A stretch of 32,100 nucleotides of DNA from Spongiactinospora gelatinilytica (GTDB taxonomy: Bacteria; Actinomycetota; Actinomycetes; Streptosporangiales; Streptosporangiaceae). Shown one piece after another: positions 2,573 through 12,516 of this stretch. A program made the translations under genes and the position numbers. The stretch lies in assembly GCF_003236385.1 (NCBI RefSeq), contig NZ_POUA01000037.1:1-32100 (forward strand), given 5' to 3'. Every line of letters begins with the position of its first letter. Position 1 is the stretch's first letter. The notes under the pieces were generated by a model, which was not told the DNA's origin, did no database searches, and saw only the letters and a program-made list of their open reading frames with translations.

Positions 2573-3469
2573 TCACTTGAGCGCGCCCGCCGTCATGCCC
2601 GCCTGCACCCTGCCCTGCAGCAGCGCGTAGACGATCAGGATCGGGGCCATGGCGATGGTGAGCCCGGCGAACAGCCCCGACCGGTCGCCCGCGTAGCCCT
2701 GCTCGACGGCGAGGTTGGCCAGGCCCTGGGCCAGTACGAACTTGCTGTCGTCGTTGACGAGCACGAGCGGGATCAGGTACTGGTTCCACTGGCCGATGAA
2801 GTTGAAGATCCCGACGCTGATCAGTCCCGGCTTGGCCATCGGCAGCATGATCTTGAAGAAGATCGCGGCCTCGCCGCAGCCATCCAGCTTGGCCGCCTCG
2901 GCGATCTCCTCGGGCAGCGTGCGGAAGAAGGCCACCAGGAAGAACACCGAGAACGGCAGCGAGTACGCGGTGTAGACCAGCACCAGGCCGGTCAGCGAGT
3001 TGCCGAGCCCCAGGTTCTGTACCACGAAGAACAGCGGGACCAGCGCCATGAAGACCGGGAACGTCATGCCGGCGATGAAGAAGTAGTAGAGCGCGCTCCT
3101 GAGCCGGAACTCGAAACGGGCCAGCACGTACGCGGCCATCGCCGACAGCAGCAGGGTCAGCACGACACCGCCCCCGACGACCAGGACGGTGTTGCCGAAG
3201 TACGTCCCGATCGACGCCGTCTCCCAGGCCCGGGCGAAGTTCTCCCAGCGCAGCGAACCCGGCAGCGACCACGGGTCGGCCACGATCTCCGGGTCGGACT
3301 TCAGCGAGCTGGCCACGGCCCACAGCAGCGGCAGGATCGAGATGACGGCCCACAGGACCAGGAACGCCTGGGCGACCGCGATCGTCGGCCCCCCGCCCCG
3401 GCCGGAACGCGGCCTCCCCCGGCCGGTGGCGTCCCGCCTGCTCACCCGGGCCTGCGTGGCGGTGGCCAT
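2573..3469 (-). CDS. ngcG: sugar ABC transporter permease, NgcG/MalG type
   Basis: Inner-membrane permease subunit of 298 residues with about six membrane segments, in the binding-protein-dependent MalG family. The first segment starts near residue 28 (TIAVAQAFLVLWAVISILPL). The EAA-type loop is visible as PEEIAEAAKLDGCGEAAIFFKIMLP, which docks the ATPase. The ATG overlaps the stop of the upstream permease by one base (TGATG), so the two are translationally coupled. It is the last gene of the three-gene minus-strand operon and ends at the strong hairpin. No ATP-binding subunit is encoded nearby. In Streptomyces such transporters share the general ATPase MsiK, and I infer the same here. The sugar assignment rests mainly on the NgcE-like binding protein. 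Confidence 0.9.
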   Translation of the reverse strand: MATATQARVSRRDATGRGRPRSGRGGGPTIAVAQAFLVLWAVISILPLLWAVASSLKSDPEIVADPWSLPGSLRWENFARAWETASIGTYFGNTVLVVGGGVVLTLLLSAMAAYVLARFEFRLRSALYYFFIAGMTFPVFMALVPLFFVVQNLGLGNSLTGLVLVYTAYSLPFSVFFLVAFFRTLPEEIAEAAKLDGCGEAAIFFKIMLPMAKPGLISVGIFNFIGQWNQYLIPLVLVNDDSKFVLAQGLANLAVEQGYAGDRSGLFAGLTIAMAPILIVYALLQGRVQAGMTAGALK

Positions 3470-4380
3470 CAGAACTCGATCCTCTCTTTGCGGGTCGCCC
3501 GCAGCGTGAACGCCGACAGGGCCAGGGTGACGACGAAGAGCACGACGCCCATCGCCGAGGCGTAGCCGAACCGGCCGTAGGAGAACGCGTTCTGGTAGAG
3601 GTAGAACGAGCCGACCTGGGTCGAGTCGTTCGGCCCGCCGCCGGTCATGATCTGGACGACGGCGAACGCGTCCAGCGCGGCGATGCCCAGGTAGACCGCG
3701 GCCGTCCGGATGTTCTCCCAGATCAACGGGATCGTGATGCGGAAGAAGACCTGGGTCCTGGAGGCGCCGTCGAGCACCGCGGCCTCCAGCAGCGAGGCGG
3801 GGATCGCCTTGATGCCCGCGGTGAACAGTACGACGTAGAAGCCGATGCCGTTCCAGACCAGCACGGCGAGCACGGCCCAGAACGCCAGCCGTTCGTCACC
3901 GAGCCAGGACGGCTGGACCTCCTCCAGCCCGACGGCCCGCAGCGCGCCGTTGAGCAGGCCGTTGATCGGGTTGTAGATGTTCTTCCACAGCACGCCGATG
4001 ATCGCGATCGACAGGACGTAGGGGAAGAAGTACACGACCCGGTAGAACTTCGCGCCCCGCACGCCCCGGATCTCCCCGCTCCGGGGCCCGCCCGCCGCGT
4101 TGAGCATGAAGGCCAGGAACAACCCCACCCCGATGGTGACGATGGGCAGGGTCACCAGCAGCAGCAGGTTGTTGCGGAGCGCCTGCCAGAACACCGGGTC
4201 GCCGAACAGTTCGGTGAAGTTGCCCAGGCCGATGAGCCCGATCTCGGCCGACAGGCCCCGCCAGTCGGTCAGGGCGATGTAGAACGCCTGAACGTACGGC
4301 GAGGCCACGAACACCGTGTACAGCAGGACCGGCGCGGCGAGAAAGCCGATGATGACGCGGCGTTGGTGCGTCTTGCGCAT
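3469..4380 (-). CDS. ngcF: sugar ABC transporter permease, NgcF/MalF type
   Basis: Inner-membrane permease of 303 residues with about six membrane segments, of the MalF/UgpA family. The first segment is near residues 8-28 (VIIGFLAAPVLLYTVFVASP). The EAA loop reads PASLLEAAVLDGASRTQVFFRITIP. It begins 19 bases after the ngcE stop and overlaps ngcG by one base, so the order is E-F-G as in the characterised ngcEFG operon. The Shine-Dalgarno is weak (GGGACGAG). Translation may depend on coupling to ngcE. It forms the membrane channel with NgcG. Confidence 0.9.
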   Translation of the reverse strand: MRKTHQRRVIIGFLAAPVLLYTVFVASPYVQAFYIALTDWRGLSAEIGLIGLGNFTELFGDPVFWQALRNNLLLLVTLPIVTIGVGLFLAFMLNAAGGPRSGEIRGVRGAKFYRVVYFFPYVLSIAIIGVLWKNIYNPINGLLNGALRAVGLEEVQPSWLGDERLAFWAVLAVLVWNGIGFYVVLFTAGIKAIPASLLEAAVLDGASRTQVFFRITIPLIWENIRTAAVYLGIAALDAFAVVQIMTGGGPNDSTQVGSFYLYQNAFSYGRFGYASAMGVVLFVVTLALSAFTLRATRKERIEF

Positions 4381-4399: not shown

Positions 4400-5788
4400 C
4401 TAGCCGCGCGCCTTGTCGGTGAGGCTCTGGGCCTGCTTGGCGAGCTGGTCGGCCTTGATGTCGCCGTTCATGAACCGGCCCATCAGGTTGGCGATGTCCT
4501 TCCACAGCCGACTGTCACGGGTGTCGACCGTGATCCCGAAGACGTTGTCGCCGGCCTCCTTCAGGGCGGCGTCGATCGACGTCAGGCCGTGCTTGGCGTC
4601 CTTGGGCGGCTTGGCGTCGCGGTTGGAGGACAGCGTGCCCGCCTTGGCGATGAAGTTCTCCGCGCCCTCGGTGGAGAGCATCGCGCGCAGGAACTCCAGG
4701 CCGCCCGCGGTGTTGGCGGCGCTGCGCGGGATGACGTACGGCTCGCCCGCCTTGGCGCACAGCGAGCCGAACGGCTTGACGTCGTCCTTGCCGATCGAGG
4801 GCGCACGGCAGATCGCCATGTCGAAGCCCTTGGGGACGCTGTCGCCCATCTCGTTCTCCAGCCAGGAACCGCCCGGCACGAACCCGGCCTTGCCGTTCAG
4901 GAACTGCATTTGGGCGTCGGTGTGGTTCAGCCCCGAGCTGCCCTTCAGCACCCAGCCGTTGGCGGGGATCGCCTCGAAGGCGCGCAGCGCGGCGACGGCC
5001 CGGTCGTCGGTCCAGGCGTCCGGCGCCAGGTTGTTGATCTTGTCGATGACCTCGGGCCCGGCGGCCTTGTAGATCAGCGAGGCCAGCCACCAGAACATGT
5101 AGTAGGGGAACTGGCCGGGGTAGGTCCAGGGGGCGATGCCCGCGGTGGCCATCTTGTCGCAGAGCCCGAGGTAGTCGTCCCAGGTCTGCGGGTAGGTCCA
5201 GCCCTTCTCCTCGAACAGCGAGGTGCTGTACCACGCCCCGTACGCGCCGTAGGAGTAGTTCAGCACGACGAACTGCCCGTCGTGCGTGCCGACCTGGACC
5301 ACGCCGGGCCGCAGCGTGTCGCCCACGGTGACCGCCGGGTCGCTCCAGGAGGGGGCCGTCAGCAGCGGCGCCAGGGACAGCAGTGCCTTGTCGCCGACCA
5401 GGGCGCCGTAGTCGATGGCGTTGGACCCGGAGTTGTTGACCACGTCCGGCGGGTTGCCCGCGACGAAGCGGGGCTGCAGGGACTGCTGGATCTGCTGGGT
5501 CGCCGACTGGGTGATCTTGGCCGCGGCGTGCTTCTTTCGGTACAGGTCGAGAGGGACCTTGATGTACTCCTGCCCGTAGCCGCCGTCGAAGACGACGACC
5601 TCCAGGGGCGCGTCCGAGGCCACTCCGAACGGATTGCCGGCCTGGGCACTTCCGGTCGGGGCGGCGGCGGGGGACTGCCGGCTTCCGCCCGTGGCGCAGC
5701 CGGCCAGCGCTCCGGCGACGGGAGTCAGGGCCAGCATGGCCAGGACCGAACGGCGGCCCGGGCGAGATGGCGGGAAACGATCGTTCAT
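4400..5788 (-). CDS. ngcE: N-acetylglucosamine/diacetylchitobiose-binding lipoprotein, NgcE-like
   Basis: Extracellular solute-binding lipoprotein of 462 residues. The N-terminus has a twin-arginine motif (RRSVLAM) and a lipobox (LAGC), so it is probably exported folded and lipid-anchored. The body resembles family-1 binding proteins of the NgcE type. Recognisable blocks are PLEVVVFDGGYGQEYIKVPL, QPRFVAGNPPDVVNNSGSN and AGIAPWTYPGQFPYYMFWW. NgcE of Streptomyces olivaceoviridis binds GlcNAc and diacetylchitobiose with high affinity; the ligand here is inferred from similarity and from the GlcNAc genes across the divergent promoter. The start is the ATG at 5788 with a good Shine-Dalgarno (GGAGGTG, 5796-5802 on the complementary strand). 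It is the first gene of its operon and probably responds to the palindrome at 5832-5852. Confidence 0.9.
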   Translation of the reverse strand: MNDRFPPSRPGRRSVLAMLALTPVAGALAGCATGGSRQSPAAAPTGSAQAGNPFGVASDAPLEVVVFDGGYGQEYIKVPLDLYRKKHAAAKITQSATQQIQQSLQPRFVAGNPPDVVNNSGSNAIDYGALVGDKALLSLAPLLTAPSWSDPAVTVGDTLRPGVVQVGTHDGQFVVLNYSYGAYGAWYSTSLFEEKGWTYPQTWDDYLGLCDKMATAGIAPWTYPGQFPYYMFWWLASLIYKAAGPEVIDKINNLAPDAWTDDRAVAALRAFEAIPANGWVLKGSSGLNHTDAQMQFLNGKAGFVPGGSWLENEMGDSVPKGFDMAICRAPSIGKDDVKPFGSLCAKAGEPYVIPRSAANTAGGLEFLRAMLSTEGAENFIAKAGTLSSNRDAKPPKDAKHGLTSIDAALKEAGDNVFGITVDTRDSRLWKDIANLMGRFMNGDIKADQLAKQAQSLTDKARG

Positions 5789-5819
5789 TGGGGTGCACCT
5801 CCACAGGATCAGCGGCTCT

Positions 5820-5855
5820 TTGACGATCCTGAGTAAGGTAAGTTACCTTACTAAT
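5820..5855 (+). promoter_or_regulatory. leaderless promoter of the SIS-nagK-nagZ-ROK operon
   Basis: TTGACG (5820-5825) and TACCTT (5844-5849) are 18 bases apart. The predicted transcription start, six to seven bases after the -10, coincides with the ATG at 5856. No Shine-Dalgarno precedes that ATG. All of this fits a leaderless transcript. Element positions are seen; the start of transcription is inferred. Confidence 0.65.
5832..5852. promoter_or_regulatory. 21-bp palindromic operator between ngcE and the GlcNAc operon
   Basis: Perfect inverted repeat: AGTAAGGTAA (5832-5841), one central base, then TTACCTTACT (5843-5852). It covers the second half of the promoter spacer and the -10 box, ending three bases before the ATG of the SIS gene. 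It also lies upstream of the ngcE Shine-Dalgarno. It is AT-rich against a very GC-rich background. The obvious candidate ligand is the ROK repressor encoded at the end of the plus-strand operon. Confidence 0.8.
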
Positions 5856-6893
5856 ATGGCTACAGCAACCGGCAATCCACCAGTTTCTCCGTGGAACACC
5901 TTCGACCAGGCGTTTCACAGCCAGTCCGAGGCGTTGGCGGACCTCGCCACGACCCTGCCGGGCCGGCTCGACCGGCACCGCGAGAGTGAGGTGGACCGCG
6001 TGGTCGCCTTCGGCATCGGCGCCAGCCGCGCCGCCGCCCACGTGCTGGTGGCCGGGCTCACCGCGGGAGGCGTACCGTGCGAGCTGCTGACCGGGGCCGA
6101 TTTCACCGCCGCCCAGGTCCGGCCGGGGACGATGTACCTGGGGATCTCCCAGTCCGGGCGCAGCGTCGAGATCGTCCGCGCGCTGTCGGCGGTGCCCGCG
6201 GACGCGCGGATGGGCGTGGTCAACCGGGTGCCCTCGCCGGTCTCGGACCTGACGCCGCGGCTCCTGTGGCTGGGCGGCGTGGCCGACTCGCGGGTCTCGA
6301 CCGTCGGCTACACCGCGACCGCGCTGGCCATGGCGCTGCTCGCCGAGCATCTCACCGGCGGTGTGAACGAGACGCGCTGGCGCGCGTTCGGCGAACGGGT
6401 GGCCTGGGTGATGCGGGAACGGCGCGCCGCCGCGGGCCGGATCGCGGCGGACCTGCTGGGTGCGGGACACATCGACGTGGTCTCCTCCGGAGCGGGCGTG
6501 GCCGCGGCCGAGGGGGCGGCGCTGCTGTTCCGCGAGGGCGCCGCGGTCCCCGCCGCGAGCTACGACACCCGCTCCTACCTGCACGGATTCATGGACAGCG
6601 CCAAGCCGGGCAGCGTCCACCTGATCGTGAACCGGGGGGCCGAGGCGCTGCTCGCCCGGCAGCTCGCCGACCACGGGGCCACGGTCCACCTCATCGGGAC
6701 CGGCCCGATCGAGTACGGCGGGACCGGCCCGCTGCACCAGATCGCCCTGCGCGGCATGACCGACGCCGAGCTGTCCATCGCCGCAAGCGTGATCTGCCAG
6801 ATGGTCGTGCAGGAGGCGTGCGCGGCCATCGGCCGCCGCCCCGAAGATCCGATCTTCACCCGCATCGACACGAAGGTCGAGACCGCCGCGTGA
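5856..6893 (+). CDS. double-SIS sugar-phosphate isomerase/deaminase-like protein
   Basis: 345-residue protein with two SIS (sugar isomerase) domains, like the isomerase half of GlmS and the GlcN6P deaminase/AgaS proteins. SIS 1 has FGIGASRAAA near residue 50 and SQSGRSVEIV near 105. SIS 2 starts near 205 (GHIDVVSSGAGVAAAEGAAL) and has SYLHGFMDSAKPG. There is no glutaminase domain, so it is not a full GlmS. In context a GlcN6P deaminase or isomerase step is the likely role, inferred from neighbours. The frame is open from 5634, but those codons lie in ngcE and its leader. The ATG at 5856 is chosen because it sits at the predicted transcription start. The stop overlaps the next gene by four bases (GTGA). 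Confidence 0.85.
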   Translation: MATATGNPPVSPWNTFDQAFHSQSEALADLATTLPGRLDRHRESEVDRVVAFGIGASRAAAHVLVAGLTAGGVPCELLTGADFTAAQVRPGTMYLGISQSGRSVEIVRALSAVPADARMGVVNRVPSPVSDLTPRLLWLGGVADSRVSTVGYTATALAMALLAEHLTGGVNETRWRAFGERVAWVMRERRAAAGRIAADLLGAGHIDVVSSGAGVAAAEGAALLFREGAAVPAASYDTRSYLHGFMDSAKPGSVHLIVNRGAEALLARQLADHGATVHLIGTGPIEYGGTGPLHQIALRGMTDAELSIAASVICQMVVQEACAAIGRRPEDPIFTRIDTKVETAA

Positions 6894-7819
6894 ACACCCT
6901 CGACCGGCCGCGCCGCGGTGTCGCGGGCTTCGACATCGGAGGCTCCTACCTGCGGGTCCGTGTGGAGGACGCGGCCACCGGCGAACCCGTCGCCGCCGAG
7001 ACCCGGCCGAACCCGGGCTGGAACGACCTGCCCGCGACCGGCCGGGCCCGCCTGATCGGCGACGTCCTGCGCGAGGTCGCCCCGCAGCTGCCGATCGCCG
7101 TGGGCGTGGGCGCGAGAGGCTGCGACTCCGACGCCCTGACCAGGGAACTCGCCGCCGCCGTGGCCGCCGAACTCGGTCCCGGCGCGCAGGTCGAGGTCTG
7201 CAACGACGTCCTGCTCGTGGGCCTGGCCGGCGGGCACGACCACGCGCTCTCGGTGATCGCCGGGACCGGCGCCGCGGTCGGAGGCCGTACCGCGGACGGC
7301 CGCACGGTGCTCACCGACGGCTGGGGCTGGCTCCTCGGCGACCACGGCAGCGCGCCGCGCATCGTGATCGACGCGCTGCGGCGCTACACCGCCCACCTGG
7401 ACCGCGGGGAAGACGACCCGGTGCTGCGCCCCTTCGTGGCCGGGGCGTTCGCCCTCACCGACGCCCGTCGGCTGCCCGCCGCGCTGAAGCGGTCCAAGGA
7501 GGAGCTGGGCGACCTCGCGGCCGGCGTCTTCGCGTGCGCGGAGGCCGGATCCGAATCCGCCCGGCAGGCCATCGCCGGCAACGCCCGGAAGCTGGCCGGC
7601 AACGTCGCGACGGCGCTGCGCCTCAGGGTGCGGGCCGACGCCGTCGTGGGGGCCGGCGCGGTCATGGTCAAGCAACCCGCCTTCCGGGCCGCGTTCGCCG
7701 CCGGACTGGCCGATCTGGACGTGTCCCTGCCACTGTCGGTCCTCGGCACCGAGCCGGTCCACGGGGCCGTCCGGCTCGCCAGGCTGGCACTGCGAAACGA
7801 CGAGGAGCAACCCGTATGA
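6890..7819 (+). CDS. N-acetylglucosamine kinase-like protein (BadF/BadG/BcrA/BcrD ATPase family)
   Basis: 309-residue cytoplasmic ASKHA-fold ATPase. The first phosphate loop is GVAGFDIGGSYLRVRVE near residue 12. The second phosphate motif is SVIAGTGAAVGGRTADG near 122, followed by GWGWLLGDHGSAPRIVIDAL, a block typical of BadF-type GlcNAc kinases. The C-terminal third includes VVGAGAVMVKQPAFRAAF. Proposed reaction: GlcNAc or a related amino sugar plus ATP to the 6-phosphate. The substrate is inferred from the NagZ and NgcE neighbours. The GTG start overlaps the SIS stop (GTGA) and its own stop overlaps the next ATG (ATGA), so all three are translationally coupled. Confidence 0.85.
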   Translation: MNTLDRPRRGVAGFDIGGSYLRVRVEDAATGEPVAAETRPNPGWNDLPATGRARLIGDVLREVAPQLPIAVGVGARGCDSDALTRELAAAVAAELGPGAQVEVCNDVLLVGLAGGHDHALSVIAGTGAAVGGRTADGRTVLTDGWGWLLGDHGSAPRIVIDALRRYTAHLDRGEDDPVLRPFVAGAFALTDARRLPAALKRSKEELGDLAAGVFACAEAGSESARQAIAGNARKLAGNVATALRLRVRADAVVGAGAVMVKQPAFRAAFAAGLADLDVSLPLSVLGTEPVHGAVRLARLALRNDEEQPV

Positions 7820-9297
7820 CATCCGACCTGCGCCGGCTCGCGCTCGGCACCGTGCTGCCCGCCTTCACCGGCACCACCGCACCGGCATGGCTGCTGGACC
7901 GGCTGCGCGAAGGGCTGGCCGGGGTCGTCCTGTTCGGCCGCAACATCGTCTCGCCGGAGCAGGTGGCGGCCCTGGTACGGCAGATCAGGGACGTCCGCCC
8001 GGACGCCATCGTGGCGATCGACGAGGAGGGCGGCGACGTCACCCGGATCCACCACGACCGGGGCAGCCCGTATCCCGGCAACCGGGTGCTGAGCGAGCAC
8101 GGCGACCTGGCCGCCACCCGCGCGGTGGGCCGCGGCATCGGCGCCGAACTGCGCGACCTCGGCATCAACTACAACCTCGCGCCGATCGGCGACTACGTGA
8201 CCGACCCGCTCAGCCCGCTCACCACCCGCTCCTTCGGCCGCGGCCCGCGCGACAACGCCGAGCACGCCGCCGCCTGGGTCCAGGGCCTGCAAGAGGCGGG
8301 CGTCGCGGCGTGCGTGAAGCACTACCCGGGGCTCGGCGGGTCGCTGCTGGACTCCCACCTCGCGCTCGGCCGGGTCCCCGCGAGCCGGGCCGAGTTCGAG
8401 TCCGGACACCTGCGGACCTTCGTCCGGGCCGCCGAGGCGGGCACGGCGAGCATGATGACCGCCCACGTCATCGTCGAGTGCCTGGACACCGAGGCGCCCA
8501 CGACGCTGAGTGGGACGGTGATCGGCCGGCTGTTGCGCGACGAGATCGGCTACGACGGCGTCCTCATCTCCGACGCGCTGGAGATGCACGGCGTGCTCAA
8601 CCACACCGGCTCGCTGCCGGCCGCCGCGGTGGGCGCGCTGCGCGCCGGGGTGGACCTGCTGTGCCTGGGAGCCGAGCAGTACGAGGAGGCGACCACGGCG
8701 GTGGTGGACGCGATCGTCGTCGCCGCCAGGTCCGGCGCGCTCGCGATCGACCGGCTGCACGAGGCCGGCCGGCGCGTCGAGGCGATGGCCCGCGCCTATC
8801 CCGGCACGCCGGGCGTACCCGGGACGTCCGACACCGCCGCCGAGCGCGCGATGGGCGCGGCGGCGGCGTGGGGCGCGACCGCGACCGAGGGCGAGGTGTC
8901 GATCGCCGGCTCGGGCGTGCACGTCGTGACGTTCGACGACCGGACGTCCATCGCGGCCGGGCCGGTGCCGTGGGGCATCGGCCCGGAGCTTCGGGCGGCC
9001 GGCGTGGAGTTCCGCGACCTGGTGCTGAGCCCGCCGATCAACGAGGACCCGGATCTGTCGGACGTCACGCCCTCCGACGTCGTGGTGGCGGTGGTGCGCG
9101 ACCTGCCGCGGCATCCCGCCAGCGTGGAGGTCTTCGCGCGGCTGCGCGCGCCGCGCCTGGTCGTCGTCGACATGGGATATCCCGGGACCGAATACCCGGG
9201 CGCGGCCGGGGTGATCCGGACATTCGGCGCGTCCAGGGCGAGTTCCGCCGCCGCCGTTCGCGCGCTGACCGAGGCCGGCGCGAATCTGGTTGGATGA
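7816..9297 (+). CDS. nagZ: GH3 beta-N-acetylglucosaminidase, NagZ-like
   Basis: 493-residue family-3 glycoside hydrolase. The TIM-barrel core shows GVVLFGRNI (37-44), VAIDEEGGDVTRI (66-78), the NagZ loop KHYPGLGGSLLDSHLAL (168-184) and ISDALEMHGV (251-260). The loop carries the Asp-x-His dyad (Asp179, His181) that NagZ enzymes use as general acid/base. Asp253 is the expected nucleophile. A second domain of about 160 residues follows, ending in ASRASSAAAVRALTEAGANL. There is no signal peptide, so a cytoplasmic role on imported GlcNAc disaccharides or muropeptide fragments is likely. Some relatives act as phosphorylases, which cannot be excluded. Shine-Dalgarno GAGGAG precedes the ATG, and the start overlaps the kinase gene by four bases. 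Confidence 0.92.
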   Translation: MTSDLRRLALGTVLPAFTGTTAPAWLLDRLREGLAGVVLFGRNIVSPEQVAALVRQIRDVRPDAIVAIDEEGGDVTRIHHDRGSPYPGNRVLSEHGDLAATRAVGRGIGAELRDLGINYNLAPIGDYVTDPLSPLTTRSFGRGPRDNAEHAAAWVQGLQEAGVAACVKHYPGLGGSLLDSHLALGRVPASRAEFESGHLRTFVRAAEAGTASMMTAHVIVECLDTEAPTTLSGTVIGRLLRDEIGYDGVLISDALEMHGVLNHTGSLPAAAVGALRAGVDLLCLGAEQYEEATTAVVDAIVVAARSGALAIDRLHEAGRRVEAMARAYPGTPGVPGTSDTAAERAMGAAAAWGATATEGEVSIAGSGVHVVTFDDRTSIAAGPVPWGIGPELRAAGVEFRDLVLSPPINEDPDLSDVTPSDVVVAVVRDLPRHPASVEVFARLRAPRLVVVDMGYPGTEYPGAAGVIRTFGASRASSAAAVRALTEAGANLVG

Positions 9298-10555
9298 CGA
9301 CGTGCGTTCCGTGGAGCTGCCCCCGACTCAGCGGCACGTCCTGAGCCACACGCTCGGGCACGGGTCCACCACCCGGCCCCGGCTGCTCACCGCGACGGGT
9401 CTGTCCAAGCCGAGCGTCAACGACGCCGTCGGCTCCCTGGAGAAGGCCGGATACGTCCGCCGCAACGGCAGGCACGTCCCGGTCACCGGCAAGCCGGCCG
9501 TGCTGTTCGAGGCGGCCGGCGAGGTGGGCTGGGTGCTCGGCATCGACCTCGGCAGCTCGCACGTCGATCTGATGGCCGTGGACCTCGCGGGGGCGGAGAG
9601 CACGCACGTGTCCGTCGCCGAGCCGGGCCCGGCGGGCGCGGCCCGGCGGCGCGAGCTGTCCCCGGCCACCGTGGAGCGGGCGGCCGGGCTGCTGGCCGAG
9701 TGGTGCGACCGGCCCGACCGCCGCGGCCGGCTGCGGTCGGTGACGATCGCCGTCCCGCAGATCATCGACGCCGGCCGCCGGCAGGTGTCGCCCGCCGGCG
9801 CCGGGCGCGAGCAGGGCGCGCTCGCCGCCCTGCTGGGCACGCTCGCCGGGCACTACGACGGCCCGGTACGCCTGGAGAACAACGTCAACTGCTCGGCGGT
9901 GGCCGAGATGCGGATCGGGGCGGGGGCCGAGGTGCCCAGCCTGGCCTACCTGCAACTGGGCGTCGGCGTCGGCGCGGGGATCATCACGGAGGGCCGCCTG
10001 GTCCGGGGCGCGCACGGAGCCGCGGGCGAGCTGTCGCGGCTGCCGTTCCCGTGGGCCGAGGGCGCCGGGCAGGTCTCCCGGCACGCGATGGAGGAACGGC
10101 TGGCGGCCTCCCGCCTGGTCGACTCCTACCGCTCGCGTGCGGCGCCGGCCGCGGACGCCACGGTCGGCGAGGTGGTCAAGGCGATCCTGGCCGACGTCGC
10201 GGACGGCTCGGCCGAGGCCAAGGCCGTCCTCGACGATTACGTGCGCGATGTCGCCAGGGCGTGCGTCGCGCTCGCGGCCGTGGTCGATCCCGACCTCGTG
10301 GTGATCGGCGGCGAGATCGGCGACGCGCTCGAGGTGGTGACCGCGATCCAGGCGGCGGCCCGGCCCCTGCACGAGTTCGTGGCGGTGTCCGGCAGCGTCG
10401 TCGGCGCGCTGGCCACGGTGCTCGGCGCGGTCATCCTCGGCCTCGAAGAGGCCCACACCGAGCTGCTGGGCGAGTACGCGGTCCACGCGGGCCCGGCCAT
10501 CGACCGGCTCCGCGGCCGTCCCCGGCAGCCCTGGTCGGAGCAGCACGCCGGGTGA
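9290..10555 (+). CDS. ROK-family transcriptional repressor (NagC-like)
   Basis: About 421 residues from a TTG at 9290; a GTG at 9302 is an equally possible start, and neither has a clear Shine-Dalgarno. The N-terminal winged helix-turn-helix is at about residues 15-65 (RPRLLTATGLSKPSVNDAVG). The ROK fold starts near 80 (GWVLGIDLGSSHVDLMAVDL). The zinc-binding cysteine cluster CxCGxxGC after GAHGAAGELS is absent. The sugar-kinase catalytic segment reads ENNVNCSAVAE instead of ENDANxxA. It should therefore sense a sugar without phosphorylating it. It overlaps nagZ by eight bases and ends the operon. I infer that it binds the palindrome at 5832-5852 and is released by GlcNAc or a phosphorylated derivative. 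Confidence 0.88.
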   Translation: MDDDVRSVELPPTQRHVLSHTLGHGSTTRPRLLTATGLSKPSVNDAVGSLEKAGYVRRNGRHVPVTGKPAVLFEAAGEVGWVLGIDLGSSHVDLMAVDLAGAESTHVSVAEPGPAGAARRRELSPATVERAAGLLAEWCDRPDRRGRLRSVTIAVPQIIDAGRRQVSPAGAGREQGALAALLGTLAGHYDGPVRLENNVNCSAVAEMRIGAGAEVPSLAYLQLGVGVGAGIITEGRLVRGAHGAAGELSRLPFPWAEGAGQVSRHAMEERLAASRLVDSYRSRAAPAADATVGEVVKAILADVADGSAEAKAVLDDYVRDVARACVALAAVVDPDLVVIGGEIGDALEVVTAIQAAARPLHEFVAVSGSVVGALATVLGAVILGLEEAHTELLGEYAVHAGPAIDRLRGRPRQPWSEQHAG

Positions 10556-10657
10556 CCCGGCGCGCGGCGCGGCGACGGGCCGGCGTCGCGACGCACATCC
10601 GGGCGTCTGACCGGCATCGTCTCCGTGAGCGCGAGCCCCCTGCGCTCGGCTGCGACA

Positions 10658-11917
10658 ATGGACGGCGTGCGTGAGAGGCCGAGCGAGCGCGGCACGGGCC
10701 TTGGGGTCTTCCGCCGCTACACGTGGTGGAGCCTGACCGGGACCGTCACTCTGTTTCTGGTGCTCTTCGGCAGGGGCTGGATCGCCGACCCCGCCCTCCC
10801 GCCGTGGGGCAAGGCCGTCGCCGTCGTGGCGCTGGCCGTCATGGTGACGGCGGCCGGGGTGCTGCTGCACCTGCGGCTGCCCCGGGGCGGGGACGGGCAC
10901 GCCCCGGAGGGCCGGGCGGTACGCCCGCCGCTCGCCTGGCTGATCGCCGGGAGCCTGGCCGCCGCCGCGCTCGCGGCGATCCCGCTCGCCCTGGGCGACC
11001 ACCGGCTGTGGCCGCTCGCGCCCGCGCTGATGGTCTCGATCATCGCCATGTTCGTGCCGCCGCTGCGCAGGTGGGCGCTGATCGCCGCCGCCGTCGTGGC
11101 CGCGGCGGCGCTGGGCGGGGTGGGCGGCCTGGCCTCCGCCGACGGGTGGCGGTCCGGGGCGGCGTTCTCCGCCGGCCTGGTGGCCTTCACCGCCTGGACG
11201 ACGCTCGGCATGCTGTCGGCCTGGGACATCGCCGAGCGGCTGAACCACGCGCGGCACCTGGCCGCGGAACTGGCGGTCAAGGACGAGCGGCTGCGTTTCG
11301 CCGCCGAACTGCACGACATCCAGGGACACCACCTGCAGGTGATCGCGCTGAAAAGCGAACTGGCGGCCCGGCTCGTGGAGTCCGACCCGGCGCGGGCCGC
11401 CGCCGAGATGAGGGAGGTGCGCCGGTTGTCCGCCGAGGCGCTGGACGACACGCGTGCCGTGGTACAGGGCTACCGCCGTACGACGCTGGAGGCGGAGATC
11501 GCCAACGCGGCGAAGGTACTGGCCGCGGCCGAGATCGACACCCGCGTGGAGCGCCCGCCGGACCCCCGCTCCGGCCCGCTGTCCGAGCCCGGCAGGCACC
11601 TGCTCGGCCTGGTGATGCGCGAGGCGACCACCAACGTCCTGCGGCACAGCCGGGCCCGGCACGCCGAGGTCGACTTCCGCGTCACCGACGGCGTCGCCCG
11701 ACTCCGCGTGACCAACGACGGCGCCGCCACCCCGCCAGGCCCGCGTCCAGGTACCGACGCTGCCGCCCTGGCGGCTTCGGGGCCGGGGAGTGGGCTGGTT
11801 GCTCTGGCGGAGCGGCTGGAGGCCGCGGGGGGCGCGTTGAGCTGGGAGTGCGATGGTGATCTGTTCGAGGTGGTGGCCTCGTTGCCGGTGGTGGAGGCCG
11901 GGGTGGTGAGCCGATGA
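10658..11917 (+). CDS. DesK-like membrane sensor histidine kinase
   Basis: About 419 residues. Five or so hydrophobic segments span residues 15-175 (for example WSLTGTVTLFLVLFGRG and APALMVSIIAMFVPP). A HisKA_3 dimerisation domain follows with the phospho-acceptor in ELHDIQGHHLQVIALKSELA. A HATPase domain is seen as REATTNVLRHSRARHAEV and GSGLVALAERLEAAGGAL. Alternative in-frame starts are GTG 10625 and GTG 10667. TGCGACAAT ending at 10659 resembles an extended -10, which would make GTG 10667 a leaderless start. The stop overlaps the regulator gene (ATGA). The many close relatives with the HDIQGHHLQVIALKSE motif have no known signal. No effector transporter lies beside it. Confidence 0.9.
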   Translation: MDGVRERPSERGTGLGVFRRYTWWSLTGTVTLFLVLFGRGWIADPALPPWGKAVAVVALAVMVTAAGVLLHLRLPRGGDGHAPEGRAVRPPLAWLIAGSLAAAALAAIPLALGDHRLWPLAPALMVSIIAMFVPPLRRWALIAAAVVAAAALGGVGGLASADGWRSGAAFSAGLVAFTAWTTLGMLSAWDIAERLNHARHLAAELAVKDERLRFAAELHDIQGHHLQVIALKSELAARLVESDPARAAAEMREVRRLSAEALDDTRAVVQGYRRTTLEAEIANAAKVLAAAEIDTRVERPPDPRSGPLSEPGRHLLGLVMREATTNVLRHSRARHAEVDFRVTDGVARLRVTNDGAATPPGPRPGTDAAALAASGPGSGLVALAERLEAAGGALSWECDGDLFEVVASLPVVEAGVVSR

Positions 11918-12516
11918 TCAAACTCTTGATCGCCGATGACGAAGACCTGCTGCGCGGCGCGCTGGCCGCGCTGCTGGAACTGGAGGACGACCTGACCGTC
12001 GTCGCCGAGGCGGCCACCTCCACCGACGCGGTACGGCTGGCCCGCGAGCACACCCCGGACATCGCCGTGCTGGACCTGGAGATGCCCCCGGCCGACGGCC
12101 TGCGCGCGGCCGAGGAGATCCGCGCCGAACTGGACGTCCCCATCATCCTGATCACCCGGCACGCCCGGCCCGGCGTACTGCGCCGGGCGCTTTCGGCTGG
12201 TGTACGTGGTTTCGTGCCCAAGACCACTCCCGCAGCCAAGCTGGCCGAGATCATCCGTGACGTCGCCGCCGGGCGGCGCTACATCGACGCCGACATCGCC
12301 GCCTCCGCCCTCTCAGAGGGCGAGTGCCCGCTCAGCGAGCGCGAGCTCGAAGTGCTGCGCGCCTCCCGCACCGGCGCGTCGATCAACGAGATCGCCGCGC
12401 AGGTCCACCTCGCCCCCGGCACGGTCCGCAACTACCTGTCGGCGGCGATGTCCAAACTGGGCGTCGCCTCCCGGCACGCCGCCGCGCACCTGGCCTGGGA
12501 AGAGGGCTGGATCTGA
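11914..12516 (+). CDS. NarL/DesR-type response regulator
   Basis: 200-residue DNA-binding response regulator. The receiver domain (1-120) has the acidic pair in IADDEDLL, the phospho-acceptor Asp in IAVLDLEMPPADG and the conserved lysine in GFVPKTTP. The C-terminal LuxR-type helix-turn-helix (about 135-198) reads LSERELEVLRASRTGASINE and continues through the HLAPGTVRNYLSAAMSKLG block. The ATG overlaps the kinase stop (ATGA), so the two form a cognate pair. The target genes are not evident from position; the next genes downstream have their own regulator. Confidence 0.93.
   Translation: MIKLLIADDEDLLRGALAALLELEDDLTVVAEAATSTDAVRLAREHTPDIAVLDLEMPPADGLRAAEEIRAELDVPIILITRHARPGVLRRALSAGVRGFVPKTTPAAKLAEIIRDVAAGRRYIDADIAASALSEGECPLSERELEVLRASRTGASINEIAAQVHLAPGTVRNYLSAAMSKLGVASRHAAAHLAWEEGWI

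Follow-up and report, generated by a model that had tools for sequence, protein, structure and literature searches.

A predicted single operator for a dedicated ROK repressor between the divergent ngcE and SIS-domain genes of Spongiactinospora gelatinilytica

Several described systems control genes for the use of GlcNAc or chitosan in actinobacteria. In Streptomyces coelicolor, ngcE has a dre site and is repressed by DasR, a GntR-family global regulator with a 16-bp site, and GlcNAc derivatives relieve the repression of the ngcEFG transporter genes (PMC6167110). In Streptomyces lividans, the ROK repressor CsnR controls chitosanase genes by binding AGGAAANTTTCCT, an AT-rich palindrome with a single central base; it is autoregulated, it responds to an amino-sugar oligomer, and its cluster includes an ABC transporter and a sugar kinase (PMC3048496, PMC6097792). 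The CsnR box overlaps the transcription start point at csnN106 (PMC3048496), and Streptosporangium roseum has an enlarged set of CsnR boxes, while no DasR orthologue was found there (PMC6097792). In bifidobacteria, NagR is a ROK repressor of GlcNAc genes that is released by GlcNAc and its phosphates and whose operators lie over −10/−35 boxes (PMC9599254). RokB of S. coelicolor is also a ROK regulator; in PnovH its site, an inverted repeat, overlaps a start codon (PMC4856308).

The window analyzed here, a stretch of 32,100 nucleotides from Spongiactinospora gelatinilytica, contains a seven-gene cassette with the divergent organization ngcGFE/SIS–BadF kinase–GH3–ROK. On the minus strand, ngcE (4400–5788) encodes a GlcNAc/chitobiose ABC substrate-binding protein, the assignment to an NgcEFG transporter coming from its score of 503.8 bits against the NgcE equivalog TIGR03851 (cut-off 399.65), and domain matches identify an ngcF-like (3469–4380) and an ngcG-like (2573–3469) ABC permease gene. 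On the plus strand, genes for a SIS-domain sugar-phosphate protein of NagB-II/GlmS-like type (5856–6893), a BadF/NAGK-type sugar kinase (6890–7819; PF01869, with a weak NagK_SO3507 match), a GH3 beta-N-acetylhexosaminidase-like protein (7816–9297; PF00933, with PRK05337 below its cut-off) and an HTH-ROK regulator (9290–10555) overlap at their ends. The kinase is of the BadF type, not the ROK type. Because the NagB, NagK and NagZ-like labels fall below curated cut-offs, we can only infer the exact enzyme roles of the SIS, kinase and GH3 proteins. Downstream of the ROK gene lies a histidine kinase and response regulator pair (10625–12516), which is also present in S. rosea. It was not found at the remaining orthologous loci, where the flanking sequence examined extends ∼3 kb beyond the ROK gene.

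The SIS gene and ngcE are separated by a 67-bp intergenic region (5789–5855), and direct reading of the sequence places within it the palindrome AGTAAGGTAA-G-TTACCTTACT (5832–5852, without strand), the predicted operator. The palindrome ends 3 nt before the ATG of the SIS gene and lies 43 nt from the start of ngcE. It is AT-rich in a window of 72% G+C, and the window contains no other perfect palindrome with arms of at least 10 and a gap of 0 or 1. The original prediction had put a perfect palindrome between these two genes, over the −10 of a promoter that would start transcription on the ATG, and both its location and the layout of TTGACG (5820–5825), 18 nt, TACCTT (5844–5849) and ATG (5856–5858) are borne out. 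A genome motif scan with the 21-bp site, which had been suggested as a check, was run on the 8.05-Mb genome and returned the palindrome as the sole site at up to 3 mismatches. A scan with a looser 14-base core likewise gave a single exact match, at the window site; the next best sites have 2 mismatches, and weaker matches occur at chance level (65 vs. 60 for a reversed control); these genome-wide site counts come from pattern scans. Sites of the DtxR/IdeR type have a 7-nt spacing between AGGT and ACCT. The palindrome bears a likeness to such sites, but its spacing is 5 nt and it occurs once in the genome, and this candidate was rejected.

The whole cassette is found in six more genomes, those of Spongiactinospora rosea, Spongiactinospora sp. 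TRM90649, two Streptosporangium and two Nonomuraea. All seven genes occur together at loci L002–L007 and L081, and box and cassette are inherited together. Absence of the palindrome from orthologous loci was looked for; instead, it is present, almost invariant, at every one. The sequence TTTGACGATCCTGAGTAAGGTAAGCTACCTTACTAAYATGG is nearly invariant and the spacing from box to ATG is fixed. Between the −35 and the ATG, ∼40 bp have hardly changed, although most cassette proteins have diverged to 71–90% identity. The linker toward the ngcE Shine–Dalgarno sequence (GGAGG, 5798–5802, minus strand, read from the sequence and conserved in orthologues) is variable. Two species have AGT at the center of the box and the other five, which carry AAGCTACC centrally, have AGC; therefore, the conserved operator unit is 9+3+9. 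Thus, the perfect 10+1+10 form over the −10, as originally described, holds for the window and S. rosea and is a local form, the other five orthologues having the 9+3+9 arrangement. The S. carneum box has one further mismatch, a T to G change in an arm. When 345 genomes from the order were scanned with AGTAAGGTANNNTACCTTACT at up to 2 mismatches, the box turned up in the cassette genomes; matches with 0–1 mismatch were confined to them, and three further genomes matched at 2 mismatches, with no cassette genes nearby.

Promoter-like sequences can be read on both strands around the operator. The −35-like TTGACG of the SIS operon is kept in 6/7 orthologues (N. antri has TTGCGA and a 17-nt spacer), the −10-like TACCTT, a TANNNT hexamer, lies within the right half of the operator, and in 7/7 orthologues the promoter spacing puts +1 on the A of the ATG. 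No Shine–Dalgarno sequence is found at a useful distance from the SIS ATG, and in S. carneum the SIS frame is closed 42 nt upstream, the sole other start codon there being the TTG of the −35 box. The SIS transcript is therefore likely to be leaderless, with its 5′ end at the AUG, a reading that rests on this position of the promoter and on the fixed operator spacing. The −10 hexamers are weak, with 3/6 consensus matches, and a default sigma-70 scan found no promoter because the −10s are only TANNNT. Immediately downstream, SIS codons 3–5 contain the invariant, CA-rich ACAGCAAC (5862–5869, without strand), and of 89 four-fold columns with an invariant amino acid, only those of codons 3 and 4 (ACA GCA) have an invariant third A. 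This invariance may reflect either CA-rich enhancement of leaderless translation, as described elsewhere (PMC9031893), or a −35 (TTGCTG, 5868–5863) of an ngcE promoter on the minus strand. Such a promoter, weak by consensus, would read TTGCTG-17-TARCTT, with its possible −10 (5840–5845; TAACTT here and TAGCTT in five orthologues) also inside the operator and a predicted start at ∼5833; a promoter-like pair arises in 15.5% of shuffles.

The ROK protein combines an N-terminal winged HTH (PF12802, residues 10–58, with PF13412) and a ROK domain (PF00480, residues 83–382), the architecture of ROK-family repressors. Across all of its orthologues the recognition helix, SKPSVNDAV, does not vary, and neither does the outer part of the box. 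The Cys-rich zinc motif, common in the ROK family but not obligatory, is taken as optional in this branch: the GAAGELSRLPFPW... segment has no cysteines in the window protein or its orthologues, and the aligned segment also has none in the other actinobacterial ROK proteins compared. The ROK regulators of SIS/NAGK cassettes (the window protein and those at L050, L051 and L080) carry ENNVNC in place of the END of other ROK proteins, which suggests a sub-branch without the catalytic Asp.

A class-wide ROK search at 1e-60 returned the protein's own genome as the only match. The closest homologues beyond the orthologues (E ∼1e-47) lie in related ABC-SIS-NAGK cassettes, and distant relatives (∼30–38% identical) have boxes of the same geometry upstream. 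In the closest case, L077, the ROK gene and an ABC-SIS-NAGK operon point away from each other, and the 19-bp box GTTAGGTCATTTACCTAAC lies in the 50-bp gap that separates the start codons of the ROK gene and the substrate-binding gene. The boxes of L078 and L079 are GTTCGTTAAGTTACCGAAC and GTTCGTTAGGTTAACGAAC, and a larger ROK group carries AGTTAGGACAGTATCCTAACT upstream. The window-only motif GTAAGGTN5ACCTTAC, at up to 4 mismatches, matched 14/28 upstream regions of ROK homologues, many of which are close to each other and so are not 28 independent cases, compared with 5/194 control segments and 57/1680 shuffles. Only this comparison used the window-only motif; a relaxed box pattern had been chosen after the sites were seen. 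Several of the relatives have no such upstream box. A group of related ROK genes (L053, L055, L056, L058, L060, L063, L065–L067 and L075) shares the palindrome TAGTTAGGACAGTATCCTAACTA upstream, some copies being one or two bases off. The upstream regions of SIS homologues (32–39% identity) are mostly inside operons and showed no common AT-rich box. Because of its HTH domain, its membership of the SIS operon and the boxes of the same geometry upstream of its relatives, the local ROK protein, to which the original prediction had also pointed, is the likely repressor. That it binds the palindrome directly is only likely, since more than ten further HTH-ROK homologues and a set of CsnR-type boxes are present in this genome, and a paralogue could bind.

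The palindrome could alternatively be a CsnR box of variant sequence, to which this genome's CsnR-type ROK paralogue binds in place of the local ROK protein. The two boxes have the same geometry, and the CsnR-critical A5 and T9 are kept (AGGTAAGTTACCT vs. AGGAAANTTTCCT). In addition, the genome contains 19 CsnR-type boxes GNTAGGAAANTTTCCTANC at up to 3 mismatches (2 for a reversed control), suggesting a sizeable ROK-controlled chitin/chitosan regulon and resembling the enlarged set of Streptosporangium roseum (PMC6097792). Among the eight CsnR-type loci that were read (within L090–L097), some boxes adjoin genes for chitin-binding (CBM5/12), GH3 and ABC substrate-binding proteins; another site precedes a GH4-like gene, judged by eye from its N terminus. 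However, the genome's CsnR-type boxes are separate from the ngc box, which has two symmetric differences per arm (GTAAGGTAA vs. GTTAGGAAA); AGGT/ACCT occurs in 0/19 of them; all orthologues keep the arm differences, save one base in S. carneum; and the SIS operon has an HTH-ROK gene of its own, whose recognition helix is invariant. Because two symmetric positions per arm differ, the ngc box looks like a specificity separate from the CsnR-type boxes, and we consider control by the CsnR-type paralogue unlikely. Control by DasR, the precedent set by ngcE in S. coelicolor, is not supported at this locus and is highly improbable. As had been suspected, the palindrome is not a DasR dre: the conserved box is unlike the dre consensus A(G/C)TGGTCTAGACCA(G/C)T, which has no match in the window at up to 3 mismatches. 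The three dre-like sites with 2 mismatches elsewhere in the genome are at chance level (the reversed control gives the same count), two of them adjoin FGGY kinase and PEP carboxylase genes, and the lack of a detected DasR orthologue in Streptosporangium roseum (PMC6097792) also speaks against this regulator.

The inverted repeat might instead work at the RNA level, as a hairpin within a longer leader of the SIS mRNA, through attenuation or translation control, as nine base pairs are possible with a 3-nt loop. Yet conservation is letter by letter, with zero compensatory changes among orthologues, and the sole arm change, T to G in S. carneum, breaks a pair. No terminator-like site and no promoter-like pair farther upstream on the plus strand of the intergenic region were found, and the box lies over the −10; a hairpin is thus very unlikely. 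The palindrome might also have arisen by chance and have no part in regulation. Under a first-order Markov model, 0.13 perfect 10+1+10 palindromes are expected per 32.1 kb, none as AT-rich. The same model gives P = 0.00045 for one in the 67-bp intergenic region, and the box is nearly invariant, at fixed spacing, in seven species of three genera. In practice, this conservation refutes a chance origin, leaving it a negligible probability.

We therefore favor, with good though incomplete confidence, the palindrome as the single operator of a local, autoregulated ROK repressor (9290–10555) that would gate both promoters. Without amino sugar, a ROK dimer would occupy 5832–5852, covering the −10 and start point of the SIS–kinase–GH3–ROK operon and also the ngcEFG promoter region on the opposite strand, so that uptake and catabolism would both be off while it is bound. 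The dimer would come off the operator when a chitin-derived sugar (GlcNAc, GlcNAc-6-P or chitobiose) is present in the cell. With its gene at the end of the SIS operon, the ROK protein would repress its own synthesis, and, with the SIS mRNA most likely starting at the AUG, the operator would stand in for a 5′ leader. In this model we infer repression as the sign, the identity of the effector and direct binding.

The proposed pair is a switch of a known kind, CsnR/NagR-like, and is new as a pair. It shares with CsnR a predicted overlap with the transcription start, a predicted amino-sugar effector and predicted autoregulation, next to a transporter and a kinase. It departs from CsnR and the csnREFGHK order in two bases of each box arm, in having GH3, SIS and BadF-type kinase genes in place of GH4, in a divergent ngcEFG, in a regulon with a single site and in a predicted substrate that is acetylated. 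NagR likewise exemplifies actinobacterial ROK control of GlcNAc uptake and catabolism, which here is predicted, but its targets are nagA/nagB and milk-oligosaccharide genes rather than ngcEFG or this cassette. RokB differs in its motif, in genomic sites without perfect repeats and in its proposed amino-acid role. With DasR control, the system shares the transporter type and a predicted relief of repression by GlcNAc derivatives, but not the site, and its predicted regulator belongs to another family. It is possible, and we put this forward tentatively, that in part of the Streptosporangiaceae control of ngcEFG passed from DasR to a dedicated ROK repressor, that a single operator gates two overlapping opposite promoters, one of them leaderless, and that the two symmetric base changes in each arm keep it apart from the cell's own CsnR-type regulon. 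The analysis names a testable repressor–operator pair for the use of chitin sugars in a family of which one species, when examined, yielded no DasR, and the ngc and CsnR boxes provide a clean paralogous ROK pair for how recognition helices set specificity.
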